A DNA stretch of 64,000 bases from Syntrophales bacterium. Lineage in GTDB: Bacteria > Desulfobacterota > Syntrophia > Syntrophales > UBA8958. Where the stretch lies: contig JAOACW010000004.1 in assembly GCA_026417625.1 (NCBI GenBank), positions 62,001 through 126,000 of the forward strand. The letters run 5' to 3'. A model generated the notes under the pieces. The model did not search any database. It saw only the letters and a list, made by a program, of their open reading frames with translations, and had not been told where the DNA came from. Below are positions 241 through 44,576 of this stretch, in pieces (position 1 is the first letter of the stretch; every line of letters begins with the position of its first letter). Position numbers and translations under genes: made by a program.

Positions 241-327
241 CCTAGCTGTTCTCCTCAAATTCCTTGACTTTTGTCGTTGTACGTATCAGAGTTAAAATCA
301 AATATCAACCCGCTTCTTAAGAAAACA

Positions 328-1524
328 ATGATTTCTCGGCGAACATTTATCAGAAATCTGGGGAAAGGAATACTGATCATTGCGGGTTCAACCGTTCTAC
401 CCCTCAATCTCTTAGCGAGGGAAAGAAAACTCAACCTCGACACCGATGCTCCCCGGGCAAGATACTGGGTTTCCGTAGAAACAGCTTCAAGCTGCGCCGT
501 GTGCCACGGCCCCGTACCGATGAGTGGCGGGGGATCATACCGCCATGAAAAGAACTTGATCCGCTGTTTACTCTGTGCCCAGGGATGCTTCATTAGGGCG
601 GGAAAAAGAGGACGGTGTCGAGCAAGGATGAACGTAGACGGCGAATTAAGAAGCCTAGTTTACGGAAGACCTGTCGCCATTCATACTGACCCTATCGAAA
701 AGAAACCTTTTTACCACTATTTACCAGGAGCAGCAGCTTTTTCTCTGGCCACTACCGGGTGTCCACTGAGTTGTCGCTTTTGTCAGAACTGGGAAATCTC
801 GCAGGCCGCTCCGGAAGACCATCCCGTTCCATATACTCCGCCCGATGTTATCGTACACATGGCGCAAAAAAACAAAGCTCCTGTGATAGCGTTCACATAC
901 AACGAACCCACAGTGTTTACAGAGTACATGGTAGACATCGCCAAGGAAGCTAAAAAAAGAGGAATAAGATCCGTGCTTGTCACATGCGGATTTATGAATG
1001 AGGATCCACTTTCAGAACTCTGCTCCTGTCTTGACGCAATTAAGGTAGATCTCAAAGGATTCAGCGAGGATTTCTACCGAGAGGTATGCGGAGCGGAGCT
1101 CTATCCGGTTTTGAAAACGATAAAGTTCATTGCCAAAAAAAAAGTTCACTTGGAAATCGTAAATTTAGTTGTACCTACACTTAATGACTCAGAGAGCATG
1201 ATAAGTGCATTGGCCGATTGGCTCTACAAGGAAGTTGGGCCAGATGTGCCTCTCCACTTCACTCGCTTTCATCCTGACTACCGCCTTTTAAATCTGCCTC
1301 CCACTCCCGTTGAAGTTCTGGAAAGAGCCCGCAAAATCGCCATGAAGAGAGGTCTACATTATGTATACGTGGGGAATGTCCCTGACCATCCTGCAAACTC
1401 AACCTATTGTCCGAACTGTGGCAAGATGGTAATATCCCGTACAGGCTTTTTTGTGAAGCAGATACACATTAAAAACGGAAAATGTGCCTTCTGCAATAGA
1501 AAAATTTCAGGTGTATGGGCTTAA
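328..1524 (+). CDS. amrS: AmmeMemoRadiSam system radical SAM protein with Tat-like signal
   Basis: A 398-residue radical SAM protein of the PFL-activase-like family that travels with Memo and AMMECR1 proteins. The cluster-binding CxxxCxxC motif (CPLSCRFC) lies at residues 145-152. Cys-rich segments flank it: CAVC and CLLCAQGC before it and a zinc-ribbon-like CPNCGK...CAFCNRK at the end. I chose the ATG at 328 rather than the in-frame TTG at 271 because it places SRRTFIRN at residues 3-10, followed by a hydrophobic stretch, as in a twin-arginine signal. The RBS is weak. The gene overlaps the next by ten bases, so the two are probably co-translated. The substrate is not known to me. Export of a radical SAM enzyme would be unusual. 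Confidence 0.88.
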   Translation: MISRRTFIRNLGKGILIIAGSTVLPLNLLARERKLNLDTDAPRARYWVSVETASSCAVCHGPVPMSGGGSYRHEKNLIRCLLCAQGCFIRAGKRGRCRARMNVDGELRSLVYGRPVAIHTDPIEKKPFYHYLPGAAAFSLATTGCPLSCRFCQNWEISQAAPEDHPVPYTPPDVIVHMAQKNKAPVIAFTYNEPTVFTEYMVDIAKEAKKRGIRSVLVTCGFMNEDPLSELCSCLDAIKVDLKGFSEDFYREVCGAELYPVLKTIKFIAKKKVHLEIVNLVVPTLNDSESMISALADWLYKEVGPDVPLHFTRFHPDYRLLNLPPTPVEVLERARKIAMKRGLHYVYVGNVPDHPANSTYCPNCGKMVISRTGFFVKQIHIKNGKCAFCNRKISGVWA

Positions 1525-3071
1525 AATGGTTTAAAAGCCCGATTATTCAAATCATCGTAATGCTAACCATCCTTCTTGGAGGTGTTATGGTAATAAATGC
1601 AGACAAAAAATCCAGCAAAGTTATTAGACCCTCCGCCGTTGACGGGAGGTTCTATCCTGGAAATAAAGTAACATTGAAAAAAACGGTGGAAATCCTGCTA
1701 GAAAGCGCGGTCAAATCCCCCGTAAAGGACCCGATTGCCATCGTTGCCCCCCATGCAGGCTACATTTATTCCGGGCAGATAGCTGCGGATGCCTTCAAAC
1801 AGGTGGCAGGAAAAGATTATGATACCGTTATTATTCTGGGTACAAATCACACATCCGCTACATTAAAGGGTATTGCCCTTTATCCTGGTGATGGTTTTGA
1901 AACCCCACTAGGTACAGTTTGGATTGACCAGGAATTGGTGCACACGTTGCTAGAAAACTCACCTGACTGCGTCATGGATAGCAGCGCCCATGCTAAAGAA
2001 CATTCCATCGAGGTGCAACTTCCTTTCATACAGGTACTTTTCCCAAACGCAAAGATCGTGCCGCTTGTAATTGGAAGACCATCTGTGGAATTATGCTCTC
2101 GTTTTGGTACATTCCTAGGGGAATTGCTAAAAGGGAAAAAAGTTCTGATTGTTGCAAGCTCCGATCTATCCCATTATCCTACTTACGATGTAGCCCGAAA
2201 GGTCGATAGCGATGTGTTGAACGCTATAATTACCTTGGATCCCGCAGTTCTGGATAAAACCATTCGCGAAATTCAAAGTCGCTCTATACCTGGTCTTCAA
2301 ACCACCGCCTGTGGAGCAGCACCTATAATGGTAGCTCAGGCGGCCGCCCGCACACTTGGAGCACGGGGTGGATACGTTGTAAGCTATGCAAATTCCGGTG
2401 ACAGTCCAGTTGGAGAAAGACACCGGGTAGTGGGTTATGGTGCTGTTGTTTTTACGCGAGAGGAAAAGAAAGAGACCTGGAAGGATAAGAAGGAAATTCC
2501 TTCGAATGGAGAATTACCTCTAACGATGGAAGATAAAAAGGCCCTTCTCTCACTAGCAAGAAACACAGTTACACAATTCCTCAACTTCCAGATTACGCCA
2601 CTGGTGAGGGGTTTTTCCCGTGCAGCCAATCAGCGTCGGGGAGTTTTTGTAACCTTCAAGAAACACGGAGAACTCCGAGGTTGCATAGGTCATATGGAAC
2701 CAGATGCACCCCTTGCATGGCAGGTTGGAGCTATGTCAATGCAAGCGGCCTTCAACGATCCCCGTTTTCCACCCATCTCGGCAAACGAATTGAAAGACAC
2801 AGAAATAGAGATCTCCGTTCTTACCCCAGTTAAGCCCGTTTCGGGTCCTCAGGACATAGTTGTAGGTAGGGATGGTGTTCTCATTCGTAAGAAAGGAAGG
2901 AGTGCCGTATTCCTGCCACAGGTCGCTGTAGAACAGGGGTGGTCCAGAGAAGAGATGCTCAACCATCTCGCAATGAAAGCAGGTCTCTCACCGCATGACT
3001 GGCGGGAAGGATGTCAAATCTTCACCTTCCAAGCTATAGTGTTCTCAGAATCAGAGGTCCGAGAACACTGA
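1515..3071 (+). CDS. Memo-AMMECR1 fusion protein (AmmeMemoRadiSam system)
   Basis: A 518-residue fusion. Residues 8-27 are a hydrophobic signal or anchor. Residues about 36-310 are a Memo-like domain, related to the extradiol dioxygenase LigB fold, with the conserved segments APHAGYIYSG, HSIEVQLPF and SSDLSHYP. Residues about 340-515 are an AMMECR1 domain, recognisable by GCIGHMEPD and FNDPRFPP. The two domains are often separate genes, so the fusion supports joint action. The hydrophobic N-terminus, together with the Tat-like signal on the preceding radical SAM protein, suggests work outside the cytoplasm or at the membrane. The start overlaps the upstream gene. The biochemical activity of the system is unknown to me. 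Confidence 0.9.
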   Translation: MGLKWFKSPIIQIIVMLTILLGGVMVINADKKSSKVIRPSAVDGRFYPGNKVTLKKTVEILLESAVKSPVKDPIAIVAPHAGYIYSGQIAADAFKQVAGKDYDTVIILGTNHTSATLKGIALYPGDGFETPLGTVWIDQELVHTLLENSPDCVMDSSAHAKEHSIEVQLPFIQVLFPNAKIVPLVIGRPSVELCSRFGTFLGELLKGKKVLIVASSDLSHYPTYDVARKVDSDVLNAIITLDPAVLDKTIREIQSRSIPGLQTTACGAAPIMVAQAAARTLGARGGYVVSYANSGDSPVGERHRVVGYGAVVFTREEKKETWKDKKEIPSNGELPLTMEDKKALLSLARNTVTQFLNFQITPLVRGFSRAANQRRGVFVTFKKHGELRGCIGHMEPDAPLAWQVGAMSMQAAFNDPRFPPISANELKDTEIEISVLTPVKPVSGPQDIVVGRDGVLIRKKGRSAVFLPQVAVEQGWSREEMLNHLAMKAGLSPHDWREGCQIFTFQAIVFSESEVREH

Positions 3072-7346: not shown

Positions 7347-7370
7347 TTTAAGGTGCCTGCTGAACGGTAG

Positions 7371-7402
7371 AACCCTGGATGTGCAGTATCCAGGGTTTTT
7401 TT
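7371..7402 (+). terminator. Intrinsic terminator after the two small membrane genes
   Basis: AACCCTGGAT, a seven-base loop, then ATCCAGGGTT running into a T tract gives a perfect 10-bp stem plus U-run. It closes the 6812-7346 unit. Confidence 0.9.
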
Positions 7403-7426
7403 ACTTAATCATTCGTAATTTCCGTA

Positions 7427-7678: not shown

Positions 7679-8656
7679 TTGATAAGTACTTTTCTTAGAG
7701 CCACAGGGAGTTACCTGCCAGAAAAGGTTGTGAGAAACGCAGATTTGGGTTCTCTGTCACTTGAAGCTCAGGAGTTGATTTACAAGAAAACTGGTATTGT
7801 TGAGCGTCGGCACGCGCATGACAACGAGTATACTTCTGACTTGGCTATTAAGGCGGCAAGCAGGTGTCTTGAAAGAGCAAGAATCGATCCCACCGATATA
7901 GATGGAATTGTTCTTGCGACATCATCTCCCGATCGCATGCAGCCCGCCACGGCAACGAGGGTTCAGGCTGAGCTCGGAGCTTGGAGGGCGTTTGCTTTTG
8001 ATATAAATTCTGTCTGCTCCGGTAGTACGTATGGTATTGCTTTATGCGATGCGTTCATTCGTTCCGGTATGTATAGGAGGATTCTGTTAGTTGGTGCAGA
8101 GGTCTACTCTCGTATTTTAAACAAGCAGGATATGAGTACTTATCCCTTTTTCGGGGACGGTGCTGGAGCTCTTCTATTCGAGGCTGGGGATATGGGTGCA
8201 GGTGTTATCCATTCATGTCTAGCTACAGATGGTAAGGGGTCAGAGGTGATTACGGTTCCTAGTGGTGGTACGATGTTGCCCTATGATAAAATGACCTCCC
8301 CAAAACAAGCTTATTTCCGCATGCGGGGTGCAGAAGTGCTTACGTTTTCTCTTGATAAAGGACCTAAGATAATAAGGCGTCTTCTTGAAGAGACAGGAGT
8401 TAGTATGCGGCATGTACGGTGGTTTATCTGCCATCAGGCGAATATAAATATAATAAGAGGTATAGCTCGGGAGTTGTCGTTGCCGGAGGATCGTTTCTAC
8501 GTGAATCTTGACCGTTATGGAAACACAGCAGGTGCTTCAGTGTTGATAGCTCTTGACGAAGTAGTAAGTAATGGTCTCGTTGAGAAGGGGGATCTTGTAG
8601 TAACCGTTGCATTTGGAGGAGGACTGTCATGGGGTGCTAATCTTATTCGCATCTAA
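7679..8656 (+). CDS. 3-oxoacyl-ACP synthase III-type condensing enzyme
   Basis: A 325-residue KAS III (FabH-like) thiolase-fold enzyme. The Cys-His-Asn triad is complete: C113 in INSVCSGSTYG, H252 in ICHQANIN and N282 in YGNTAGAS. FabH-type enzymes condense an acyl-CoA starter with malonyl-ACP. The start is TTG, with AAAGGAGGGGG just upstream; no ATG lies nearby. It opens a tight operon with an ACP (15 bases on), a PHA synthase and a malonyl transferase, so it is more likely pathway-specific than the housekeeping FabH. The starter specificity cannot be read from sequence. Confidence 0.9.
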   Translation: MISTFLRATGSYLPEKVVRNADLGSLSLEAQELIYKKTGIVERRHAHDNEYTSDLAIKAASRCLERARIDPTDIDGIVLATSSPDRMQPATATRVQAELGAWRAFAFDINSVCSGSTYGIALCDAFIRSGMYRRILLVGAEVYSRILNKQDMSTYPFFGDGAGALLFEAGDMGAGVIHSCLATDGKGSEVITVPSGGTMLPYDKMTSPKQAYFRMRGAEVLTFSLDKGPKIIRRLLEETGVSMRHVRWFICHQANINIIRGIARELSLPEDRFYVNLDRYGNTAGASVLIALDEVVSNGLVEKGDLVVTVAFGGGLSWGANLIRI

Positions 8657-8671
8657 AAAGGAGGTACAACC

Positions 8672-8935
8672 ATGGATGCTGTTATAAAAAAAATTATAGA
8701 AGGTATTAGGGAGATATTCTTGGAGCTGGGGGACCAACCACTAACAGCGGAGACAAGATTGGGGGATATTCCTGGATTCGATTCCATGGCGGCGGTTAAC
8801 CTACAGACCTTCCTTGAAGAGACTTTTAAAGTAAGTGTATTTCTCGAGATTCTAAATGAAGAGACAACAATTGAAGAAGTTGCCCTTTATATAACCGATC
8901 CTCAGAAAATGGTCCAAGCTGTAAGGAGAGGTTAA
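8672..8935 (+). CDS. Acyl carrier protein (locus 1)
   Basis: An 87-residue carrier protein. The phosphopantetheine site is S38 in GFDSMAAVNL, and the acidic helix II typical of ACPs follows. A strong RBS (AAAAGGAGG) precedes the ATG. It sits between a KAS III and a PHA synthase, so it probably carries the acyl chains built or moved by this operon. It differs clearly from the ACP of locus 2 (42992), whose serine motif is NSA. Confidence 0.9.
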   Translation: MDAVIKKIIEGIREIFLELGDQPLTAETRLGDIPGFDSMAAVNLQTFLEETFKVSVFLEILNEETTIEEVALYITDPQKMVQAVRRG

Positions 8936-8939
8936 AAAA

Positions 8940-10586
8940 ATGGATCCTTTGGGGGTAGTGTCAACCTTTCAGAAGGTACAAGAGTCCTGGGTTGAGCGTT
9001 CGGAAGAATTTCAGGAATTGTGGATTTCTTTGCTTGATGCTCTTCAGAGTGCCGTGCTCGAAGAGATGAATAGAATTTTACAGACAAAAGAAGGTGTTGA
9101 ATCCATAGATACCCGAGATTCTGTGATAAATACGGTCAAGAATTATGCATCTTTTGCTAGGCGTTTGCATACGATTTTGGGGAACTGGCTGAGAGATCTC
9201 ATAGAAAAGGCTAAAGATTTAAACGAGCATGATCGGATGCGGGCTTATTTCTGGGCCAGGCAGATAATGAGCGCCCTCAATCCATCCAACTATTTCTGGA
9301 CAAATCCTTTTGCTGTACAGAAGTTTATTGACAGCGGTGGAAAGAGTTTCTTGATTGGTATGGGAAACTGGTTTGAAGACTTGTTCGAGGGAGAGTTTCT
9401 CAGCCGATTGGTGGATAATAAAGCTTTCGAGGTGGGGCGGAATATAGCTACTACGCCTGGAAAGGTTATATACAGGAACCGTCTTATGGAGCTAATTCAG
9501 TACGCATGCTCTACTGAAAAGGTTTATGAGTATCCCATAGTCTTTATTCCTCCTTGGATCAACAAGTATTACATATTGGACCTCACCCCGGAAACCAGCA
9601 TGGTTCGGTACTTGCGTGATCAGGGATTCACAGTTTTCACCATCAGCTGGCGCAACCCCAATGAAACCATGAAGGATGTTACATTCGATGATTACATGAT
9701 TGAAGGTGCTTTAAGGGCTATCCAGATCAGCCATGAGGTATGTAGAACGAAAAGAGTTCATGCTGTGGGATACTGCATTGGAGGCACCGCACTTGCTGCA
9801 CTTATGGCTTGGTTGAACAGAGAGAGGCGAAAGTCTGGAACCGGTGCAGTGGCAACGTGGACCCTTTTCTCTACTTTGGTTGATTTTTCAGAGCCTGGTG
9901 AGATCGGGGTGTTTATCAATAAAAATTCTGTGGAATTTCTGGAGAGTATACTGAGGAGTACAGGATATCTGGACAAAAGATACATTGACCTTACATTTCG
10001 TCTTCTTGGAGCAGATAATCTTATATGGAGAAACGTTATTCACAACTATCTATACGGTGGCACACCGCCACGTTCGGAGATGCTATACTGGAACACAGAT
10101 GGTACCAATCTTCCTGCAGCGATGTGTTCCTTTTACTTAAAGGAGTTTTACATGAACAATAGGTTGGTGGAAAAGAATGGTGTTACTTTAGCCGGTTATC
10201 CCATTGATCTTGGGCTTATATCCCAGCCCCTTTACTGTGTAGGTACCCACTTGGATCATATCTGTCCCTGGAAGGGGACGTTTAAGACGGTGAATCATGT
10301 TTCGTGCGATGTGCGATACGTCCTCTCCAGTGAAGGTCATATTTCAGGCATTATAAATCCGCCTTCGGCGTTTTCCCGGCGGAGATACTGGGCGGGGAAA
10401 GCCAGTCGAGGGGAAACACCTGATGAGTGGTTAGCTCGGCAAGAGGTTTGTCAGGGATCTTGGTGGCCCGATTGGGTTTCCTGGTTGACAAAGGGAGATC
10501 GAAGAAGTACGAAAGCGCGCCTGGTGGGGAACGAAAAATACCCCCCATTAGAAGAGGCACCGGGGCTTTACGTCCGGGAGAGGTAA
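8940..10586 (+). CDS. phaC: Polyhydroxyalkanoate synthase-like alpha/beta hydrolase
   Basis: A 548-residue PHA synthase family protein. The N-terminal 200 residues are helical as in class I PhaC. The catalytic domain has the lipase-box-like GYCIGG with C279, D439 in THLDHICPW and H467 in SEGHISG, the expected Cys-Asp-His triad for polyester chain growth from 3-hydroxyacyl thioesters. No phaE/phaR partner or phasin is seen nearby. The gene starts four bases after the ACP stop, with AGGAGAGG upstream. The context (KAS III, ACP, malonyl transferase) is unlike usual pha operons (phaA/phaB, 3-hydroxyacyl-CoA) and suggests ACP-bound substrates. An acyltransferase role other than polymer formation cannot be excluded. 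Confidence 0.88.
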   Translation: MDPLGVVSTFQKVQESWVERSEEFQELWISLLDALQSAVLEEMNRILQTKEGVESIDTRDSVINTVKNYASFARRLHTILGNWLRDLIEKAKDLNEHDRMRAYFWARQIMSALNPSNYFWTNPFAVQKFIDSGGKSFLIGMGNWFEDLFEGEFLSRLVDNKAFEVGRNIATTPGKVIYRNRLMELIQYACSTEKVYEYPIVFIPPWINKYYILDLTPETSMVRYLRDQGFTVFTISWRNPNETMKDVTFDDYMIEGALRAIQISHEVCRTKRVHAVGYCIGGTALAALMAWLNRERRKSGTGAVATWTLFSTLVDFSEPGEIGVFINKNSVEFLESILRSTGYLDKRYIDLTFRLLGADNLIWRNVIHNYLYGGTPPRSEMLYWNTDGTNLPAAMCSFYLKEFYMNNRLVEKNGVTLAGYPIDLGLISQPLYCVGTHLDHICPWKGTFKTVNHVSCDVRYVLSSEGHISGIINPPSAFSRRRYWAGKASRGETPDEWLARQEVCQGSWWPDWVSWLTKGDRRSTKARLVGNEKYPPLEEAPGLYVRER

Positions 10587-10589
10587 TTT

Positions 10590-11537
10590 ATGGGAAAGGT
10601 TGCCTTCGTTTTTCCAGGGCAGGGCTCCCAGTTTGTGGGAATGGGGGCTGATATTTATCAAACTTACAGCGAAACCCGGGAAGTTTTCAAAAAGGCAAGT
10701 GAAGTACTCGGTTTTGATATGGAGTCTCTATGTTTTAAGGGGCCTGAGGATGTACTGGCGAGTACCTTTTACACCCAGGTGGCTGTTTTGACTTTAGAAT
10801 TGGGAGCTTTGGAGGCTTTGAGATCAGAGACATCGTTTGTGCCTCATTACCTGGCGGGTCACAGTTTGGGGGAATACGCAGCTATTTATGCTTCGGGGGC
10901 TCTAAGTCTCCCGGATGTTCTATATATAGTTAAGCTGAGAGCACTCCGACACCAGGAGGCAGTTCCCGAGGGGGTCGGGGCTATGGCCGCGGTTATCGGC
11001 CTAGAGGAAAATGTGGTGAAGGAGGTTTGTGAAAGAGCGTGCGCTACTGGTTATGAGGTGGTGGACGTAGCCAACATAAATGCACCCAATCAGGTGGTGG
11101 TATCCGGACACAGAGGTTTAGTAGATCGGGTGGTAAATGAGTTAAGTGAAAGAGGGGCGAAAAAATGGGTGTTACTCCCCATAAGTGTCCCCTGTCATTC
11201 CCGTTTGCTGGTACGAGCTGCCTTAGATTTTTATAAAGATCTCTCCGGGATACAATTTGGCGAATTCAAGATACCCGTTCTTCCCAATTATGATCCTTGG
11301 AAGTTCCATACACGGGAAACTGCTGTAGAACTTCTTTGGCGTCAGATGGTTTCTCCTGTGAGGTGGAAAGAAACGGTTGAACGTTTAGTTGAGCTTGGAG
11401 TCGATACGGTGGTTGAAATTGGACCTAGGAGAGTCCTCGGTGGGTTGATAAAGGCCATCGATCGACGTGTAAATGTGCTCTTTGCAGGTGACGTTTCTTC
11501 CTTAAGGGGCACCGCCCGGTATTTGAATTCCCTTTGA
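10590..11537 (+). CDS. Malonyl-CoA:ACP transacylase-like acyltransferase (locus 1)
   Basis: A 315-residue FabD-family acyltransferase, with FPGQGSQFVGMG at the start, the nucleophile S92 in GHSLGEY and H203 in PCHSRLL. FabD moves malonyl from CoA to ACP. It is the last gene of the KAS III-ACP-PhaC operon (three bases after phaC). A second FabD-like gene lies at 36724 in another acyl-chain operon, so at least one of the two is probably pathway-specific. The residues that fix malonyl versus other extender units cannot be judged safely here. Confidence 0.9.
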   Translation: MGKVAFVFPGQGSQFVGMGADIYQTYSETREVFKKASEVLGFDMESLCFKGPEDVLASTFYTQVAVLTLELGALEALRSETSFVPHYLAGHSLGEYAAIYASGALSLPDVLYIVKLRALRHQEAVPEGVGAMAAVIGLEENVVKEVCERACATGYEVVDVANINAPNQVVVSGHRGLVDRVVNELSERGAKKWVLLPISVPCHSRLLVRAALDFYKDLSGIQFGEFKIPVLPNYDPWKFHTRETAVELLWRQMVSPVRWKETVERLVELGVDTVVEIGPRRVLGGLIKAIDRRVNVLFAGDVSSLRGTARYLNSL

Positions 11538-36723: not shown

Positions 36724-37677
36724 ATGTCTTCAGACGAGAAGATTGTGGCTGTTGTTTTCCCGGGGCAGGGTGCGCAGAGGCCTGGTATGGGTAAAGATTT
36801 TGTGGAGAACCTTTCCGTATGTAGGGAGACTTTTGAGGAGGCTTCCGATGCTCTGGGTTGGGATGTGGCGAAGGTATGTTTTAGCGATGATGAGCGTCTG
36901 AGTTTAACTGAGTATACGCAGCCATGTCTTTTGACTACTGAGATTGCCATGTTCAGGGGACTTGTTTACCTATACGGTTTAAAGTCCCAATTTTTTGGAG
37001 GGCATAGTCTCGGAGAGATCACCTCTCTTGTAGCAGCGGGGGTGCTTACTCTTGCTGATGGAGTGCGAATAGTTGAGCAGCGAGGGCGTCTGATGCAGCA
37101 GGCGGCTCCCAAAGGGACGGGAGGTATGATGGCTGTGATCGGGGAGAGAGTATATGTTAATGAGATTGCCAGTACTATAGAAGATCTGCCCGTGGATGTG
37201 GCCAATGTGAATTCGCCCAAACAGATAGTCATAAGTGGTCTTGCAGAGGCTTTACCTGTTGCAGCTGAGAGGATAGCGGCGGTCTCTCGGGAGCAAGGAG
37301 TTCTCCGTTTTGTTCCTCTAAACGTGAGCGCGCCTTTCCACAGCCGGTTCATGAGGCCTGTGGAGAGTGTTTTCCAAGAAATACTCCGTTCTATTGCTCG
37401 TTCGATGAATACCGTTCCTGCGCGGAACGTGACTTCTAACTTTAGAGGAGATTTTCACAGAGATGAGGATGAAGCGATCATTTACGCATTGACGCGTCAA
37501 ATCGGTAGTCCTGTACGTTGGGTGGAGAATATGGAAGTTCTCGCTTCAAAGGCTGATGTTATTTACGAAATCGGTCCTTCCCGTCCACTAAGGGAGTTTT
37601 TTAAAGCATTAGGGGTGGATTGCATTTCAATTACCACCCTTTCTTCGGCTGCTAGAGTATTCGAGAGAGAACATTGA
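36724..37677 (+). CDS. Malonyl-CoA:ACP transacylase-like acyltransferase (locus 2)
   Basis: A 317-residue FabD-type acyltransferase that opens a ten-gene operon. FPGQGAQRPGMG, the nucleophile GHSLGE and APFHSRFM (active His) are intact. It should load malonyl, or another extender, onto the ACP encoded at 42992. It is clearly distinct from the paralogue at 10590. A GGGAGG RBS lies seven bases before the ATG. Confidence 0.9.
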   Translation: MSSDEKIVAVVFPGQGAQRPGMGKDFVENLSVCRETFEEASDALGWDVAKVCFSDDERLSLTEYTQPCLLTTEIAMFRGLVYLYGLKSQFFGGHSLGEITSLVAAGVLTLADGVRIVEQRGRLMQQAAPKGTGGMMAVIGERVYVNEIASTIEDLPVDVANVNSPKQIVISGLAEALPVAAERIAAVSREQGVLRFVPLNVSAPFHSRFMRPVESVFQEILRSIARSMNTVPARNVTSNFRGDFHRDEDEAIIYALTRQIGSPVRWVENMEVLASKADVIYEIGPSRPLREFFKALGVDCISITTLSSAARVFEREH

Positions 37678-37691
37678 GAGAGGGATCACCT

Positions 37692-38891
37692 ATGGATTTT
37701 CAGCTAACAGATGTGCAGCGTGAGTATCTGGAGACAGTGAGGCGTTTTGTGCGAACGGAGATTCTACCCAATGTAATGGTACGGGAGAAAGAACACCAGT
37801 TTCCCCATGACATTATAAGAAAGCTTTGGGAAATGGGTGTTATGAATTTGAGTATCCCTGAATCCGTGAAGGGTTATTCAATTGATGCAGTATCTACTGC
37901 GTTGATCATAAGGGAACTTGCCTACGGTGATTCAGGAATTGCCACTTCGGCTATGTGCAATGATCTCGCCAATGTGGTTATTGCGAAGCACGGTACACCT
38001 TTTCAGCAGGAAATTTATCTTAGAAAATTTTTGGAAAGTCCACTCCTTGCTTCATTTTGCCTCACGGAACCTGGTGCAGGTTCTGACAACATGGCAATGC
38101 GATCGTATATTAAGCGCCGGGAGGATGGGTCGTATGTTCTTAACGGTTCTAAGTGTTTCATTACAAACGCCTCCTATGCTTCTCAGTTTACGGTGTTCTG
38201 TAAAGTAGGCTCGCCTGAAGGGGCCTTCATGTCCTGCGTGGTGATTCCTGTGGATAACGCGGCGGGGGAAGAATGGAAGGGAAGTGCCGAAAAAGGTCGT
38301 GTAGTCAATCTGAACGGTGGTGGGTGCATTGTAACTGGGAAGGCGGAGGATAAGCTCGGTCAACGGCTATCCAATACCGCTACTGTAAGTTTCGAGGATG
38401 TTCCCGTCCTTACCCACCAAATCATCGGCGATCGCCGTAGAGGGTTTCAGTATCTCGTGGACGTTTTGGATTATGCGAGACCAATGGTTGCAGCTATTGG
38501 TGTGGGACTGGCTATGAGGGCACTTGACGTTACCCTCCAGTACACGAGAGAGAGGAGACAGTTTGGTTCGCGGATCTGTGATATTCCCGTGGCACGAGAT
38601 ACCCTGGTGAAGATGTGGAAGAAGGTGGAGTTAGCCGATCTAGCCCTTATGAGGGCAGCTTGGATGGTTGAGGAGAACGCGCCTGAGAAGGGACGTTACG
38701 CTTCGCTTGCGAAGAATGTTGCTGCAGAAGCGGCGTTGTTTTGTACTATGGAGGGTCTTCATCTCCACGGGGGATATGGTTTCATGAATGAGTACGAAAT
38801 TTCCAAGTTGGCCAGGGATGCCCACATCATTGACATTTACGAGGGGGTTCGCGAAGTTCAGGATATGATAATCGGCAGGGAGATTGTGTGA
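37692..38891 (+). CDS. Acyl-CoA dehydrogenase family flavoprotein
   Basis: A 399-residue acyl-CoA dehydrogenase-fold protein. It has the FAD/substrate segments LTEPGAGSDNMAM and FITNASYASQF and the usual catalytic Glu in IYEGVREVQ (E384). In a biosynthetic operon without FabI/FabK/FabL it might reduce enoyl-ACP or introduce a double bond into an ACP-bound chain; direction cannot be read from sequence. A 20-residue insertion-like stretch (PVDNAAGEEWKG...) follows the beta domain. I start at ATG 37692; the TTG at 37674 overlaps fabD. Confidence 0.85.
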   Translation: MDFQLTDVQREYLETVRRFVRTEILPNVMVREKEHQFPHDIIRKLWEMGVMNLSIPESVKGYSIDAVSTALIIRELAYGDSGIATSAMCNDLANVVIAKHGTPFQQEIYLRKFLESPLLASFCLTEPGAGSDNMAMRSYIKRREDGSYVLNGSKCFITNASYASQFTVFCKVGSPEGAFMSCVVIPVDNAAGEEWKGSAEKGRVVNLNGGGCIVTGKAEDKLGQRLSNTATVSFEDVPVLTHQIIGDRRRGFQYLVDVLDYARPMVAAIGVGLAMRALDVTLQYTRERRQFGSRICDIPVARDTLVKMWKKVELADLALMRAAWMVEENAPEKGRYASLAKNVAAEAALFCTMEGLHLHGGYGFMNEYEISKLARDAHIIDIYEGVREVQDMIIGREIV

Positions 38892-39880
38892 TAAATATGC
38901 TGTACATACACGGACTGGGTCATTACCACCCGGAGAATGTGATTACAAATGAGTTTCTTGAGTCTCTGGACATAGGGACTACAGACGAATGGATTATGGA
39001 AAGGGTAGGAATCCGTTTTCGACGGACGATCCTGCCACTGGAATATATCAGGGCGACCAAAAACAGTGATCCTAGAGAGGCTTATGAAATAACGCGGGGG
39101 GCTAATGCTAAGACGGGAGCAGCGGCTGCCCGGATGGCTATGGAGAGGGCTGGTATTGGACCGGAGGATGTCGGTCTTGTTATTTCCGGTAGCTCGGCAC
39201 CGGAAGTACTTTCACCAGCGGAAGCTACCCTCATTGCGGAGGCTCTTGGTATAGAGGCCCCGTGTTTTGATCTAAATTCTGCGTGCACCTCCTTTGGTAT
39301 GCAGCTTCGCTTTCTTGATATGATGCGGCCGGAGGCCCTACCTCCCTTTATTCTTCTTGTGAATCCGGAGAATCTTACGCGCACTGTTGATTTTTCTGAT
39401 AGATCATCAGCGGTTCTCTTTGGTGATGGGAGCTCAGCCGCTGTGGTATCAGCGACGGTTCCGTCAAGAATCACTGTCAGAAACTGCGAGAGTAGTACAA
39501 AACCTTCACTCTGGGAAAAAGTAACCATTCCGCGGTGGAGTTATTTTCGCCAGGATGGAAATGCAGTTCAGGGTTACGCCATAAGACGTATGACGGAATC
39601 TCTGCGATATTTGCGGAGTTGTGTAAACGGTGGACGTTTTATCTTCGTTGGCCATCAGGCTAATTTGGGTATGCTCAGGACAGTCTGTGAAAGGGCGAAC
39701 CTACCGCCGGACTATCATTGGCATAACGTGGAAGAATACGGAAACACGGGATGTTCGGGTGCACCTGCAGTTTTGAGTCAGCACTGGGATGATATAAAGG
39801 AGGGTGACAACATCGCAATTACGCTGGTAGGCGCCGGTTTAACATGGGTGCATTTCAGCCTGCATATAGAAAGGAGTTGA
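38888..39880 (+). CDS. 3-oxoacyl-ACP synthase III-like condensing enzyme (locus 2)
   Basis: A 330-residue KAS III-type enzyme with active Cys in NSACTSFG, His in GHQANLGM and Asn in YGNTGCSG. It probably starts chain building with a pathway-specific acyl starter. It has an insertion-like stretch near residues 195-220 (ESSTKPSLWEKVTIPRWS). The GTG start overlaps the stop of the dehydrogenase gene (GTGTGA); an ATG nine bases on is also possible. Confidence 0.87.
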   Translation: MINMLYIHGLGHYHPENVITNEFLESLDIGTTDEWIMERVGIRFRRTILPLEYIRATKNSDPREAYEITRGANAKTGAAAARMAMERAGIGPEDVGLVISGSSAPEVLSPAEATLIAEALGIEAPCFDLNSACTSFGMQLRFLDMMRPEALPPFILLVNPENLTRTVDFSDRSSAVLFGDGSSAAVVSATVPSRITVRNCESSTKPSLWEKVTIPRWSYFRQDGNAVQGYAIRRMTESLRYLRSCVNGGRFIFVGHQANLGMLRTVCERANLPPDYHWHNVEEYGNTGCSGAPAVLSQHWDDIKEGDNIAITLVGAGLTWVHFSLHIERS

Positions 39881-39885
39881 CTTCT

Positions 39886-40482
39886 GTGACTTATCAGGAA
39901 TTTATGAACAGATCTTTTTTTAGTCAGATAGAGCTCATCGCCTTTGCATACGGAAAATTGGTGGATGATCCACCTGTCAATTTTGATGGAAGGCTTCCCG
40001 CTCCTCCCTTTCTGATGGTGGACAGAGTACTTGAGCTGGAGAAGAACGGGCGTCGGGGACGTATAGTCGCAGAGCAGGATGTGAGAATTGATGCCTGGTT
40101 CTTTCAGTGTCATATGCCTGGTGATCCCGTTCAACCAGGGTGTCTTTGCATAGATGCCGTGTGGCAGCTCCTAGGCTTTTACGGGATTTGGCGGGGCGCT
40201 CTCGGTGTGGGGAGAGCCTTAGGTTGCGGTGAGATTTCATTCGAAGGCCAGGTGCGTCCTCATGATCGCTATGTACGATATGAAATATCGGTAAAACGGT
40301 TTGTGGAACTCAAGGATTCGGGTTCTTTTCTCGTCATCGGTGATGGGGAGATGTTTGTCAATGGGGAGTGCATAGGTTATGTGAGGGACGCCAAAACGGG
40401 GATATTCCAGGGCATTATGTATAGGAATTACCCGTGGAAAACGATCAATGGCACAGGGGGTTCAGTGAGGAGGCAATTGTGA
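39886..40482 (+). CDS. fabA: FabA-type 3-hydroxyacyl-ACP dehydratase
   Basis: A 198-residue single hot-dog protein much closer to FabA than FabZ: LPAPPFLMVDRV, WFFQCHMPGDPVQPGCLCIDAVWQL (cut here at 20: CHMPGDPVQPGCLCIDAVWQ) with the His and Asp of the active site, and GRALGCGEISFEGQV. FabA dehydrates and can isomerise trans-2 to cis-3 enoyl-ACP, the anaerobic branch point to unsaturated chains. The GTG at 39886 has AAAGGAG nine bases before it; an upstream ATG lies inside the preceding gene. Confidence 0.88.
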   Translation: MTYQEFMNRSFFSQIELIAFAYGKLVDDPPVNFDGRLPAPPFLMVDRVLELEKNGRRGRIVAEQDVRIDAWFFQCHMPGDPVQPGCLCIDAVWQLLGFYGIWRGALGVGRALGCGEISFEGQVRPHDRYVRYEISVKRFVELKDSGSFLVIGDGEMFVNGECIGYVRDAKTGIFQGIMYRNYPWKTINGTGGSVRRQL

Positions 40483-41207
40483 AGGGGGCAAAAGTAGCAG
40501 TTGTCACTGGTGGTGCTACAGGTATAGGAGCCGCGTGTTGCAGGGCGCTGGCGAGAAAGGGTTTTCTGGTGGGCATACATTACAACAGAAGCGCAAGTGC
40601 GGCTGAAGGTTTGCTTTCAGAGCTCGGTGAGGGTTTCCTTTTGAAGGCGGATCTCGCCCATGTGGAAGAGATAGACCATATGTTGGAAGATTTGCGGGCG
40701 AAAGTGAATAGAGTTGACGTTCTTGTCAACAACGCAGGTGTGTCGATCAATGCAGATATACACTCAATGAATGTGGAACAGTTTGACAGACAGCGGTGGA
40801 TGTCTCGGGGAACCTGGTATCTCACAAAGAGGATTTTACGTCAATTCATGATCCGGCAAAATGAGGGTCGGATTATAAATATTTCGAGTGTTGTGGCATC
40901 CATCGGAAACGCTGGTCAGATACCCTACACCATGGAAAAGGCAGCCCTAGAGGCTTTCACAAAATCTCTCGCTAAGGAGCTCTCAGGCAGGAACATCCTT
41001 GTAAACGCTGTGGCTCCCGGTTTTATAGACACAGAGATGACAAAATCTCTACCGGAGGAGATACGTGTGGAAATACTTTCACGAATACCCCTTGGCCGAA
41101 TGGGAAGACCTGAAGAAGTAGCTGAGGTGGTGGCATTTTTGGCAACGGAAGGTACGTACATCCACGGGACAGTCGTTCATGTAAATGGAGGGCTCTATGG
41201 GGGTTGA
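40479..41207 (+). CDS. FabG-like 3-oxoacyl-ACP reductase (SDR)
   Basis: A 242-residue short-chain dehydrogenase/reductase. TGGATGIGAA binds NADP(H), LVNNAGVS follows, and the catalytic Ser (NISSVVAS) and Tyr-x3-Lys (YTMEK) are present. It reduces 3-oxoacyl-ACP. The start is GTG with GAGGAGG six bases upstream and overlaps the fabA stop; the ATG at 40434 lies inside fabA. YTMEK replaces the common YSASK but keeps Tyr and Lys. Confidence 0.88.
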   Translation: MKGAKVAVVTGGATGIGAACCRALARKGFLVGIHYNRSASAAEGLLSELGEGFLLKADLAHVEEIDHMLEDLRAKVNRVDVLVNNAGVSINADIHSMNVEQFDRQRWMSRGTWYLTKRILRQFMIRQNEGRIINISSVVASIGNAGQIPYTMEKAALEAFTKSLAKELSGRNILVNAVAPGFIDTEMTKSLPEEIRVEILSRIPLGRMGRPEEVAEVVAFLATEGTYIHGTVVHVNGGLYGG

Positions 41208-41685
41208 CCGTAAAACGGTGGAGACAGTTCTCAGTCTTGTCCCTCAGGCTCCGCCTTTTCGTTTTGTGGACGATATTCTTGAGTTAGACGAAGATCGCAT
41301 TTTGGGGAGGTGTTGTTTTCCTCACGATGCGTGGTTTTACAGAGGTCACTTCCCAGGAAATCCCGTTACTCCTGGGGTTATTATCATTGAGGCCATGGCC
41401 CAAACCGCTGTGGTTGCCTTTGGTATATATCTCCTTTTGTTGCAGGGTAAGGGAGAGGAGGAAATAAGAAAACAAATGACCCTTTTTTCGTTTCTAGAAA
41501 ACGTAGATTTTATGGACATTGTGCGACCTGGGGAATCGCTTATTGTGAGGGGTGAAAAGGTATACTTCCGCCGTGGGAATTTAAAGGTAAAAGCGTTAAT
41601 GGAAAGAGAAGGAGGTAACGTGGTGTGCAGTGGAGTTCTGGCTGGTACCTCCCGCAGTATACCTATTTTGGATTCTGCGGGGTGA
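41197..41685 (+). CDS. FabZ-like 3-hydroxyacyl-ACP dehydratase
   Basis: A 162-residue hot-dog dehydratase with PPFRFVDDI, FYRGHFPGNPVTPGVIIIEA (catalytic His and Glu) and AQTAV. It is a second dehydratase beside the FabA-type enzyme two genes upstream. ATG 41197 is chosen because GGAGGG lies just upstream; ATG 41185 would add four residues. It overlaps the reductase gene by 11 bases. Confidence 0.88.
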   Translation: MGVDRKTVETVLSLVPQAPPFRFVDDILELDEDRILGRCCFPHDAWFYRGHFPGNPVTPGVIIIEAMAQTAVVAFGIYLLLLQGKGEEEIRKQMTLFSFLENVDFMDIVRPGESLIVRGEKVYFRRGNLKVKALMEREGGNVVCSGVLAGTSRSIPILDSAG

Positions 41686-41707
41686 TTACTGAAAGAGGTG
41701 TGGTCCT

Positions 41708-42988
41708 ATGATGAGGAGGGTGGTTGTAACAGGAATGGGGGTAGTTGCCCCTAATGCCCATGGTTTAGAGGCTTTTGAGAAGGCACTCCGGGAAGGGCGA
41801 TCTGGTATCAGATTTATCCCTGAGCTAAAAGAGCTTGGGTTTTCCTGCCAGGTGGGAGGAAAACCTGTAGACTTTGATCGTATTGTGGAGTCTTATTTTG
41901 ATGCTGAGACGTTGCTTTCCATGAATGAAAATATAGGTTACGCATCTGTTGCGGCTGTGGATGCTTGGAGGGATGCAGGCTTTGAGGTACCCCCTCCGGA
42001 TAGTGAGTATGTAAATTGGGACACTGGTGCAGTCATTGGATGTGGAATTGGCGGGATGGATACAATTGCTCATTACGTTGTGCCTTACGTTAACGAGCGA
42101 AAGGTACGTCGTATGGGTAGTACTATTGTGGAGCAGGTGATGAATAGCGGTCCCAGTGCTCGCGTCGCCAGTCTCCTCGCTCTAGGCAATCAGGTTACAT
42201 CCAATTCAGCTGCATGTTCTACAGGCACTGAAGCTATCCACGATGCTATGTGGAGGATCCGTCTTGGTCTGGCTAAGAGGATGCTAGCCGGAGGCTCTGA
42301 GGGGGGGTCGCCTTATGTGTGGTCTGGATTTGATGCCATGCGGGTTATATGCAGAAAGTTTAACGATAATCCTGAGGCGGCTTCAAGACCTATGAGTGCA
42401 TCTGCTGCAGGGTTTGTTCCAGGTGCTGGCAGTGCTATACTTGTTCTGGAGGATCTTGAAACGGCCATTGCGAGAGGGGCGCGTATTTATGCGGAAGTTA
42501 AGGGAGCGGCTGTCAACTGCGGTGGTCAAAGGCAGGGGGGGACGATGACCGCACCTAACCCAGAAGGAGTAAAACGGTGCATTAGAATGGCCATTCAGGA
42601 TGCGGGTATATCTCCCGAGGAAATTGATGCCATTAACGGTCATCTTACTGCTACTTATGCAGATCCTGTGGAGGTGAGAAATTGGGCAGAAGCCCTAGAA
42701 AGAATCCCTGAGAACTTTCCTTACATCAATTCTACTAAATCAATGATAGGACACTGTCTGGGTGCGGCAGGGGCACTCGAAAGCGTTGCTGTTGTTCTTC
42801 AGCTTTATAGAGGTTTTATCCATCCTTCTATCAACTGTGAGGATATCCATCCTGATATCGCTCCTTTTGATAGTAAGGTACCCAGGGTGTGTTTGGAGAT
42901 GCCTAGCTTACGTATAATTGCCAAAGCGGGTTTCGGCTTTGGTGATGTTAACAGTTGCATTATATTCAAGAAATGGGAGGATGAGTGA
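41708..42988 (+). CDS. 3-oxoacyl-ACP synthase, KAS I/II type, atypical His motif
   Basis: A 426-residue elongating ketosynthase. The Cys-His-His triad is C170 (NSAACSTGTEAI), H312 (NGHLTATYADPVE) and H349 (KSMIGHCLGAAGALE). In usual FabF/FabB the first His stands in HGTST; the GHLTAT form here suggests a separate subfamily. It lies between the FabZ-like gene and the ACP gene and should elongate the chain made by this operon. No chain-length-factor partner is present. Confidence 0.87.
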   Translation: MMRRVVVTGMGVVAPNAHGLEAFEKALREGRSGIRFIPELKELGFSCQVGGKPVDFDRIVESYFDAETLLSMNENIGYASVAAVDAWRDAGFEVPPPDSEYVNWDTGAVIGCGIGGMDTIAHYVVPYVNERKVRRMGSTIVEQVMNSGPSARVASLLALGNQVTSNSAACSTGTEAIHDAMWRIRLGLAKRMLAGGSEGGSPYVWSGFDAMRVICRKFNDNPEAASRPMSASAAGFVPGAGSAILVLEDLETAIARGARIYAEVKGAAVNCGGQRQGGTMTAPNPEGVKRCIRMAIQDAGISPEEIDAINGHLTATYADPVEVRNWAEALERIPENFPYINSTKSMIGHCLGAAGALESVAVVLQLYRGFIHPSINCEDIHPDIAPFDSKVPRVCLEMPSLRIIAKAGFGFGDVNSCIIFKKWEDE

Positions 42989-42991
42989 GTC

Positions 42992-43243
42992 ATGGATGAG
43001 CGAGCTATTTTTGAAAAGATGATTGAAATTCTCAAGGTTTACACGAAGGATGTGGCTTTAGTGGAAAAAGCCACCATGGATACGCACATATTGGATGACC
43101 TTAAGGTAAATTCTGCTCGGCTTGTGGACATTATAATAAAGTGTGAGGACGTCTTCGGAATTACGATTGAGGATGACGAGGCTGATAAAATCAGAACTAT
43201 CGGTGATGCCGTAAATCTAATCAAGCAAAAGGTCTCTGTCTGA
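42992..43243 (+). CDS. Acyl carrier protein (locus 2), NSA-type serine motif
   Basis: An 83-residue carrier protein. The expected phosphopantetheine serine is S41 in LKVNSARLVD, where most ACPs have DSL. The helix II to helix III pattern (IIIKCEDVFGITIEDDEA) is normal. It starts three bases after the ketosynthase and is followed by an acyltransferase and a phosphopantetheinyl transferase that could activate it. Confidence 0.85.
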   Translation: MDERAIFEKMIEILKVYTKDVALVEKATMDTHILDDLKVNSARLVDIIIKCEDVFGITIEDDEADKIRTIGDAVNLIKQKVSV

Positions 43244-43249
43244 TCAAAA

Positions 43250-43981
43250 ATGCTATCTCTGAAAATCCAGTATTGGGCTGGAAGGATAGCGGTTTTCTTT
43301 CTAGCGCCCCTATATATCATTGTGCTCAGGTTTTTCTTTAAATACAGGCTCCGCAACCTAAGCGAGGTGAGGCGTAAGTGGCGGATGCTTTTGGAGGAAC
43401 ATAGGGGACCGTGGATTGTCTGTGCCAATCATCTAACCCTTATCGATTCTCTCATTCTGACGTATGGTCTATATTCCCTCTGGGATCATATAGTGTATTA
43501 CGATACCATTCCCTGGAACCTACCTGAAAAGAGGAACTTTCAGAAGAATTTGGCTTTGGTTATTTTCTGTTATCTCGCGAAGTGTATACCTGTTGAGCGA
43601 GGAGGGGATCGAGAAGGAATGAAGAAAACTGTAGAGAAGTGTAATACTCTCCTAACTATGGGGCAGAGTCTGCTCATATTCCCTGAGGGAAGGAGGTCCC
43701 GGAAAGGTAGGGTAGATGTAGAGAATTATGCTTATGGTGTGGGGCGTTTTGTGGCTGAGCATAGTAACTGTCGTGTGCTTCTGGCTTATCTTCGGGGAGA
43801 TGGGCAGGAGACGTTCAGCGATTACCCAAAGCGGGGCGAAACGTTTATCATTATGCTTAAGCCTTTTGAAGTTCCCTCCATGGGTCTTCAGGGCTTAAGG
43901 GGTCACCGAGAAAGGGCAAAGAGCATTGTTGAGGAACTGGCGAAGATGGAAGATGAGTATTTTCGGGACTATAGGCAATGA
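43250..43981 (+). CDS. PlsC-like 1-acylglycerol-phosphate acyltransferase family protein
   Basis: A 243-residue membrane-associated acyltransferase with an N-terminal hydrophobic helix (about residues 10-30), the NHLTLID catalytic motif (H-x4-D) near residue 63 and FPEGRRSRKG near 148. PlsC enzymes esterify lysophosphatidate; relatives in natural-product operons move unusual acyl chains to other acceptors. Its place at the end of a fatty-acid-type operon suggests it transfers the operon's product from ACP to a lipid. Confidence 0.85.
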   Translation: MLSLKIQYWAGRIAVFFLAPLYIIVLRFFFKYRLRNLSEVRRKWRMLLEEHRGPWIVCANHLTLIDSLILTYGLYSLWDHIVYYDTIPWNLPEKRNFQKNLALVIFCYLAKCIPVERGGDREGMKKTVEKCNTLLTMGQSLLIFPEGRRSRKGRVDVENYAYGVGRFVAEHSNCRVLLAYLRGDGQETFSDYPKRGETFIIMLKPFEVPSMGLQGLRGHRERAKSIVEELAKMEDEYFRDYRQ

Positions 43982-44576
43982 TATTGTGGATCTCACAGAA
44001 GTTGCCAATTTCGGAAAGAGCCGAAGCAAGCGATTTCTAGAACGAGTTTTCACCAAAGAAGAACAGAGACTTATAGAGGGAAGCGAGTGGCCGGACAGGA
44101 TTCTCTGGCTCTTATGGGCAGCGAAGGAGGCCACCTATAAAGTGCTTGTAAAAATGGTTCCTGAAGTTACTTTTGTACCTCGAAACTACCCGATTGAACG
44201 TCTGCAGTTTGAAGGGTATGATGCAGGTTACTCGGATGTGCTAGGCTCTGTACATCATAATGGTATCCGCGTTCCCTTTCTAGGTGAGATGTCGGAATCT
44301 TTCGTTCACGTGTGTGCTATTTACCCGCATTTGTCCTTTCCTGTTTACCGGGAAATCTTCCCCTGTTCGGAACGTCACTCAGAGGAGATTAGAAAACGCC
44401 TCGCCCGTCGAATTGGAGAATTGTTTTCCATTGGGGAAGAAGAAGTACATGTGATCAGGGATAAAACAACACGCGGGTTGGGTCATCCCTATGTGGTCGT
44501 TGCCGGACATGTAGGGAAGGTTGATGTAAGTTTAAGCCATGATTATACATTTGCTGCTTATGCGATCTGTTATTGA
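43953..44576 (+). CDS. 4'-phosphopantetheinyl transferase
   Basis: A 207-residue PPTase with GNDIVDL near residue 7 and WAAKEATYK near 60, the Mg2+ and CoA-binding motifs. It converts apo-ACP to holo-ACP, probably for the atypical ACP encoded two genes upstream. A longer frame starts at 43926; ATG 43953 best places GNDIVDL. It overlaps the acyltransferase gene by 29 bases. It ends the operon. Confidence 0.85.
   Translation: MSIFGTIGNDIVDLTEVANFGKSRSKRFLERVFTKEEQRLIEGSEWPDRILWLLWAAKEATYKVLVKMVPEVTFVPRNYPIERLQFEGYDAGYSDVLGSVHHNGIRVPFLGEMSESFVHVCAIYPHLSFPVYREIFPCSERHSEEIRKRLARRIGELFSIGEEEVHVIRDKTTRGLGHPYVVVAGHVGKVDVSLSHDYTFAAYAICY

Follow-up and report, generated by a model that had tools for sequence, protein, structure and literature searches.

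The stretch of DNA analyzed here, referred to as the window, comprises 64,000 nucleotides of contig JAOACW010000004.1 (assembly GCA_026417625.1) of a Syntrophales bacterium. At positions 7679-11537 it carries four co-directional open reading frames (ORFs) encoding, in this order, a 3-ketoacyl-acyl carrier protein synthase III (KAS III), an acyl carrier protein (ACP), a polyhydroxyalkanoate (PHA) synthase of the PhaC type and a FabD-type malonyl-coenzyme A (CoA):ACP transacylase. The KAS III-ACP-PhaC core of this operon recurs in relatives and marks a real and conserved operon type that is apparently undescribed as yet. Judging from sequence, we lean with modest confidence toward the operon being a dedicated malonyl-fed supply line, the chains of which PhaC would polymerize directly from the arm of the ACP.

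A conserved KAS III-ACP-PhaC core

The four ORFs follow one another at distances of 15, 4 and 3 nt, each preceded by a purine-rich ribosome-binding sequence. Pfam and NCBIfam agree on the identity of all four genes, the Pfam families being ACP_syn_III/ACP_syn_III_C, PP-binding, PhaC_N (1.9e-52) and Acyl_transf_1. The tight four-gene operon with an intact PhaC triad that was proposed in a first-pass annotation of this DNA was thus confirmed by ORFs, gaps, families and catalytic residues. Its genes are the following:

7679..8656, plus strand: KAS III (FabH-type), 325 aa, TTG start; Cys113-His252-Asn282, Gln88 at the acyl-pocket gate
8672..8935, plus strand: dedicated ACP, 87 aa; phosphopantetheine Ser in GFDSMAAV; PF00550; conserved in the clade
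8940..10586, plus strand: PhaC-type PHA synthase, class I-like, 548 aa; Cys279-Asp439-His467; PF07167; TIGR01838; PDB matches
10590..11537, plus strand: FabD-type malonyl-CoA:ACP transacylase, 315 aa; TIGR00128; PDB FabD match at 5.7e-64

A PhaC of the operon lineage was held by 12 of the 60 relatives searched, with KAS III adjoining in 12/12 and the ACP sitting between KAS III and PhaC in all of them except G006. The same gene order was found in families f1, f4, f6, f12 and f17 of the order, the outer flanks of which differ; the ctpA and TPR genes downstream of the operon are common only to the window's own family. A contig scan added loci from Smithella, Syntrophobacteraceae, Desulfarculales and Desulfobacterales, and the order recurred in named records including Syntrophaceae. 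The neighborhood is therefore more than chance, the core being kept while the flanks vary, and its predicted conservation held across the five families and the four named groups. Not so for the four genes as a unit: the invariant core consists of KAS III-ACP-PhaC, whereas the gene 3′ of phaC is FabD in 12/22 loci, a short-chain reductase in 7/22 and neither in 3/22. FabD is the last gene in most Syntrophales loci. Two loci (L089 and L090) have the ACP and no adjoining KAS III. The system is rare, since in a sample of 395 genomes of the phylum operon-type KAS III was found at E <= 1e-95 only in the window's genome and in G003.

In a tree of 62 PhaCs (of a quick kind), the ACP-linked enzymes formed one Desulfobacterota clade with an SH-aLRT support of 100, requiring a single change of state. 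The expectation that this clade always has an ACP neighbor was borne out, an ACP lying directly upstream of PhaC in 22/22 readable clade members as opposed to 0/39 class I-like relatives outside, as judged with a profile built from this clade and, for some of the outside loci, from only ~1 kb of readable upstream DNA. One further member of the clade (L109) sits on a contig that ends just upstream of phaC. KAS III was also present in 20 of the 22 ACP-linked loci, and the operon ACP was not found on plasmids. PhaC distances correlated with those of KAS III, ACP and FabD (Spearman 0.59, 0.69 and 0.79, respectively; Mantel p = 0.001 each), as expected of genes inherited together, although shared species history alone would give part of this correlation.

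Several loci of the clade are irregular. In L043/L113 (G006:C192, DYRD01000011.1), the N-terminal part of KAS III is in frame with the C-terminal part of PhaC and the ACP is gone; the join lies at a shared Ser-Arg-Gly stretch and reflects either a real deletion-fusion or an assembly error. In the GC-rich L039/L082 (G047:C51), long overlapping ORFs of 913 and 1074 aa run across phaC and fabD in different reading frames and are probably artefacts of the high GC content. A ketopantoate-reductase-type gene (ApbA/PanE) adjoins phaC in the FabD-less Syntrophales loci L092 (7663-8577), where it is convergent, and L042 (G032, G013).

Catalytic residues and possible specificity of the encoded enzymes

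The operon PhaC carries a PhaC_N domain (PF07167, 177.9 bits; cut-off 23.7), and the closest proteins of known structure are PHA synthases, with PDB matches down to 1.7e-104. We term it class I-like rather than class I because its score against the NCBIfam class I model TIGR01838 (543.8 bits) falls under the curated cut-off of 622.65. It shares with class I enzymes (TIGR01838, PF07167) the PhaC_N domain, the Cys-Asp-His triad and the length, and is ~35-42% identical to plasmid-borne members of that class, but differs from them in this score, in residues of its own beside the catalytic His and in always adjoining an ACP instead of phaA/phaB. The triad, consisting of Cys279 in the elbow GYCIGG, Asp439 and His467, was invariant across 47 aligned PhaCs. 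The residues beside the catalytic His, in contrast, set the clade apart, E465, T/S469, S476 and S479 standing in place of the S, L, V and P of sister PhaCs. Position 469 is the counterpart of Ala510 in the C. necator enzyme, a residue that influences composition.

The operon KAS III scores 307 bits against TIGR00747 (FabH), over the cut-off of 292.1, and its catalytic triad (Cys113, His252, Asn282) is complete. Every PhaC-linked KAS III readable over that stretch has the motif SSPDR-x-QPATAT with Gln88, at a position that is occupied by Phe in the solved FabHs 4dfe and 2ebd and in the unlinked FabH of L090. The operon enzyme is thus devoid of the Phe at the acyl-pocket gate that is a feature of acetyl-specific FabH, a residue that corresponds to F87 of E. 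coli FabH and limits the acyl pocket. This Gln and the His-loop residues of PhaC hint, without either proving it, at an altered monomer, such that the starter or the monomer may be other than acetyl or 3-hydroxybutyrate. FabH mutants were reportedly employed in engineered E. coli PHA synthesis by Nomura in 2004. According to PMC3896788, studies cited therein obtained longer PHA monomers by the use of FabH mutants, and copolymers result when such mutants are combined with PhaC.

The operon ACP matches PF00550 (PP-binding) at 25.9 bits (cut-off 20.8), and its Asp-Ser attachment motif is conserved in the clade. Had it been the housekeeping ACP, this would have undermined the first-pass annotation; the housekeeping protein was found elsewhere, at C2:154232, scoring 60.5 bits as compared to 25.6 for the operon ACP. 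The operon FabD scores 291.2 bits against TIGR00128, over the cut-off of 260.9, and has its active-site Ser in AGHSLGEY (GHSLGE), aligned with that of solved FabD.

Other fatty-acid and PHA genes of the genome

Five relatives of 95-100% completeness (G001, G002, G015, G022 and G028) have neither the operon nor an operon-type KAS III and retain a different KAS III and a FabD for fatty acids, which makes the KAS III and FabD of the operon look dedicated. The presence in all relatives that is expected of the KAS III of a housekeeping fatty-acid cluster was accordingly not found for the operon enzyme. A second fatty-acid-type cluster, at window positions 36724-44576, encodes FabD, an acyl-CoA dehydrogenase homologue, a divergent KAS III, FabA-like, FabG and FabZ-like proteins, KAS II, an ACP, an acyltransferase and a phosphopantetheinyl transferase; its divergent KAS III is kept in relatives without the PhaC operon. 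A fabG-acpP-fabF set lies at C2 of the window's genome. The cluster at 36724-44576 has two FabA-like dehydratases and no FabI-type gene, and enoyl reduction in its fatty-acid synthesis is possibly of the acyl-CoA-dehydrogenase type. Two of its products may act on the operon ACP or its chains, namely the transferase as a candidate for activating the ACP and the FabG-type enzyme as a possible ketoreductase in trans, among other candidates. These genes, together with a feature upstream of the operon, are:

40434..41207, plus strand: FabG-type reductase of the 36724-44576 cluster; PF13561/PF00106; shares 30-32% identity with the reductase encoded in sister-lineage operons
43926..44576, plus strand: 4'-phosphopantetheinyl transferase of the 36724-44576 cluster; PF01648, 2e-12
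7369..7406, plus strand: intrinsic-terminator-like hairpin with a 14-pair stem and a T run (consensus scan only)

The hairpin, which in a narrower delimitation spans 7369-7399, stands between the operon and upstream ATP-synthase-type genes. Promoter-like sites were no more frequent than by chance (6 found, 6.6 expected), none standing out, and no known RNA element was found upstream of the operon. No PhaG-type transacylase gene occurs between the ATP-synthase-type genes and ctpA, phaC being the only alpha/beta-hydrolase-type gene of the operon. Further upstream in the window (271-3071) lie a radical-SAM protein and then an apparent Memo-AMMECR1 fusion (AmmeMemoRadiSam set, judged by eye).

In all 7/7 Syntrophobacteraceae/Desulfarculales loci, a KR-type short-chain dehydrogenase is encoded directly 3′ of phaC, such that condensation, carrier, reduction and polymerization are encoded side by side in these sister lineages. 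Two of these seven reductase-bearing loci, both in Desulfarculales, have PhaR (PF07879) upstream of the operon, tying the cluster to PHA. Phasin-like ORFs near sister-lineage operons were seen by eye only and had no Pfam match. Three Syntrophales genomes (G003, G005 and G021) encode elsewhere a reductase that is 71-75% identical to the sister-lineage one. This sister-lineage reductase was dropped as a universal component because the window's genome lacks it and G022, a genome without this PhaC, has it.

The window's genome (G000; 1.79 Mb, 97.8% complete) harbors a class III locus of conventional make-up, PhaE-PhaC-MaoC at C1:154-159 kb with PhaR at C1:159191, which makes the operon a second PHA-type system. 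Both would make a PHA-type polyester, but the C1 locus has a class III synthase and a CoA route, and its PhaC is 26% identical to that of the operon over the C-terminal part only. Linked control of the operon by PhaR was dropped for this genome, the only PhaR of which lies at the class III locus. A third PhaC, an orphan class I-like enzyme at C11:41686-43053, adjoins a Na/phosphate-symporter-like gene. In G037, where neither PhaR nor a strong second PhaC was found, the operon may be the only PHA-type system.

A proposed ACP-fed polyester route and its alternatives

In the route that we favor, FabD, or another FabD where the linked copy is missing, would load malonyl onto the dedicated ACP. KAS III would form 3-oxoacyl-ACP from malonyl-ACP and an acyl-CoA starter, and reduction to (R)-3-hydroxyacyl-ACP would be the task of a short-chain ketoreductase, the gene for which lies directly behind phaC in sister lineages and presumably in trans in the window's genome. 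The Cys of PhaC would then join the 3-hydroxyacyl units, accepted straight from the ACP's phosphopantetheine arm, into polyester. We infer each of these chemical steps and the identity of the reductase from the gene content, the intact catalytic residues, the co-inheritance and the separation from housekeeping fatty-acid genes. Supply from ACP-bound chains, as suggested in the first-pass annotation for a polyester or another acyl transfer, stands as the best explanation of these observations, the direct ACP-to-PhaC transfer, the monomer and the polymer itself being the conjectural part. A bolder version, in which this PHA synthase lineage polymerizes straight from dedicated 3-hydroxyacyl-ACP and a KAS III of altered starter specificity leads to an unusual-monomer polyester, is put forward tentatively; its starters might, for example, be longer, branched or ring-bearing and come from syntrophic metabolism.

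A number of points weigh against ACP-fed polymerization. The window's operon lacks a reductase gene, and the best match to the sister-lineage reductase in its genome, at 36%, is not a close homologue, so that FabG-type enzymes of that genome would have to serve. The conventional PhaE-PhaC-MaoC-PhaR locus already present leaves no obvious need for a second route to storage polymer, and a search of the window's genome for a PF06850 depolymerase gave no clear match. No polymer is known, nor was any cultured clade member found whose phenotype has been described, and the AlphaFold model of PhaC, from an 11-row alignment, was too poor to use (mean pLDDT, the predicted local distance difference test score, 59). 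Finally, PHA synthases are described as users of CoA thioesters, a transacylase being needed to link fatty-acid synthesis to them (class II, PMC8357295).

In an alternative that we consider rather unlikely, the malonyl-fed supply line is the same, but PhaC is an ordinary CoA enzyme, and polymerization is preceded by transfer of the 3-hydroxyacyl group from ACP to CoA, catalyzed either by FabD or KAS III as a secondary activity or by a PhaG-like transacylase encoded at an unlinked site. PhaG acts so in pseudomonads, FabD and FabH have been suggested as substitutes (PMC8357295), PhaC has all the residues expected of a class I-like synthase and FabD is linked in 12/22 loci. No transacylase is clade-wide, however, FabD is not next to phaC in the other 10/22 loci, all of which have the ACP, and the clade-specific changes of PhaC lie right beside its catalytic His. 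These same changes, together with Gln88 of KAS III, suggest an unusual substrate and would also fit a PhaC-type acyltransferase that releases what KAS III and ACP produce in the form of a small ester, an oligomer or a lipid. We deem this improbable: the separate conventional PHA locus (PhaE, MaoC, PhaR) and the lack of a clear PF06850 depolymerase would agree with it, but the company of PhaR and a KR-type reductase in sister-lineage operons provides a PHA-type context, the full PhaC_N domain, the length and the solved PHA-synthase homologue at 1.7e-104 speak for a polymerase, and no gene for the biosynthesis of an acceptor molecule is conserved beside phaC. Least probable, and largely rejected, is an accidental neighborhood of an ordinary PhaC and ordinary fatty-acid genes. 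KAS III and FabD do score as canonical FabH and FabD, and the former is the genome's only FabH-grade KAS III, yet five near-complete relatives live without it, separate fatty-acid clusters exist at window positions 36724-44576 and at C2, the ACP is divergent and always PhaC-linked, Gln88 sets this KAS III apart and the core stays while the flanks change.

Textbooks present PHA synthesis as a CoA-based pathway fed by PhaA/PhaB, by beta-oxidation or by PhaG hand-over. The PhaG route of Pseudomonas to medium-chain-length PHA, which relies on a 3-hydroxyacyl-ACP:CoA transacylase, resembles ACP-fed polymerization in connecting ACP-bound 3-hydroxyacyl chains to a PHA synthase; PhaG, however, draws on the general fatty-acid ACP and moves the chains to CoA, whereas here the ACP and the condensing enzyme are dedicated and form part of the phaC operon, to which no PhaG gene is linked. 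The NphT7-type acetoacetyl-CoA synthase, used to make polyhydroxybutyrate (PHB) from malonyl-CoA, likewise has a KAS III fold and forms a C4 unit by irreversible malonyl condensation but, unlike the operon KAS III, acts on CoA thioesters without ACP. In E. coli, overexpression of fabH or fabD is reported to supply PHB monomers (Taguchi 1999, ref. 64 of PMC8357295), which supports the view that KAS III, FabD and PhaC can work in combination. That engineered system, which also combines a KAS III, a malonyl transacylase and a PHA synthase, is artificial and uses the housekeeping ACP; the present operon is natural, vertically conserved and has an ACP of its own. The claim that nothing similar is known therefore requires qualification: no description of this operon type was found in the open-access literature searched, but the PhaG link of pseudomonads and FabH/FabD-fed PHB in E. 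coli precede it.

Until ACP-direct polymerization or an unusual monomer is demonstrated, the operon is a variant of PHA synthesis rather than new chemistry. The old question of whether a PHA synthase can take acyl-ACP directly becomes testable with natural partners. If the favored reading is true, the pairing of a synthase with a condensing enzyme and a carrier protein dedicated to it would represent a natural malonyl-driven and effectively irreversible route to polyester, offering biotechnology a ready-made ACP-to-polymer module, and uncultured syntrophic anaerobes would make an undescribed polymer.

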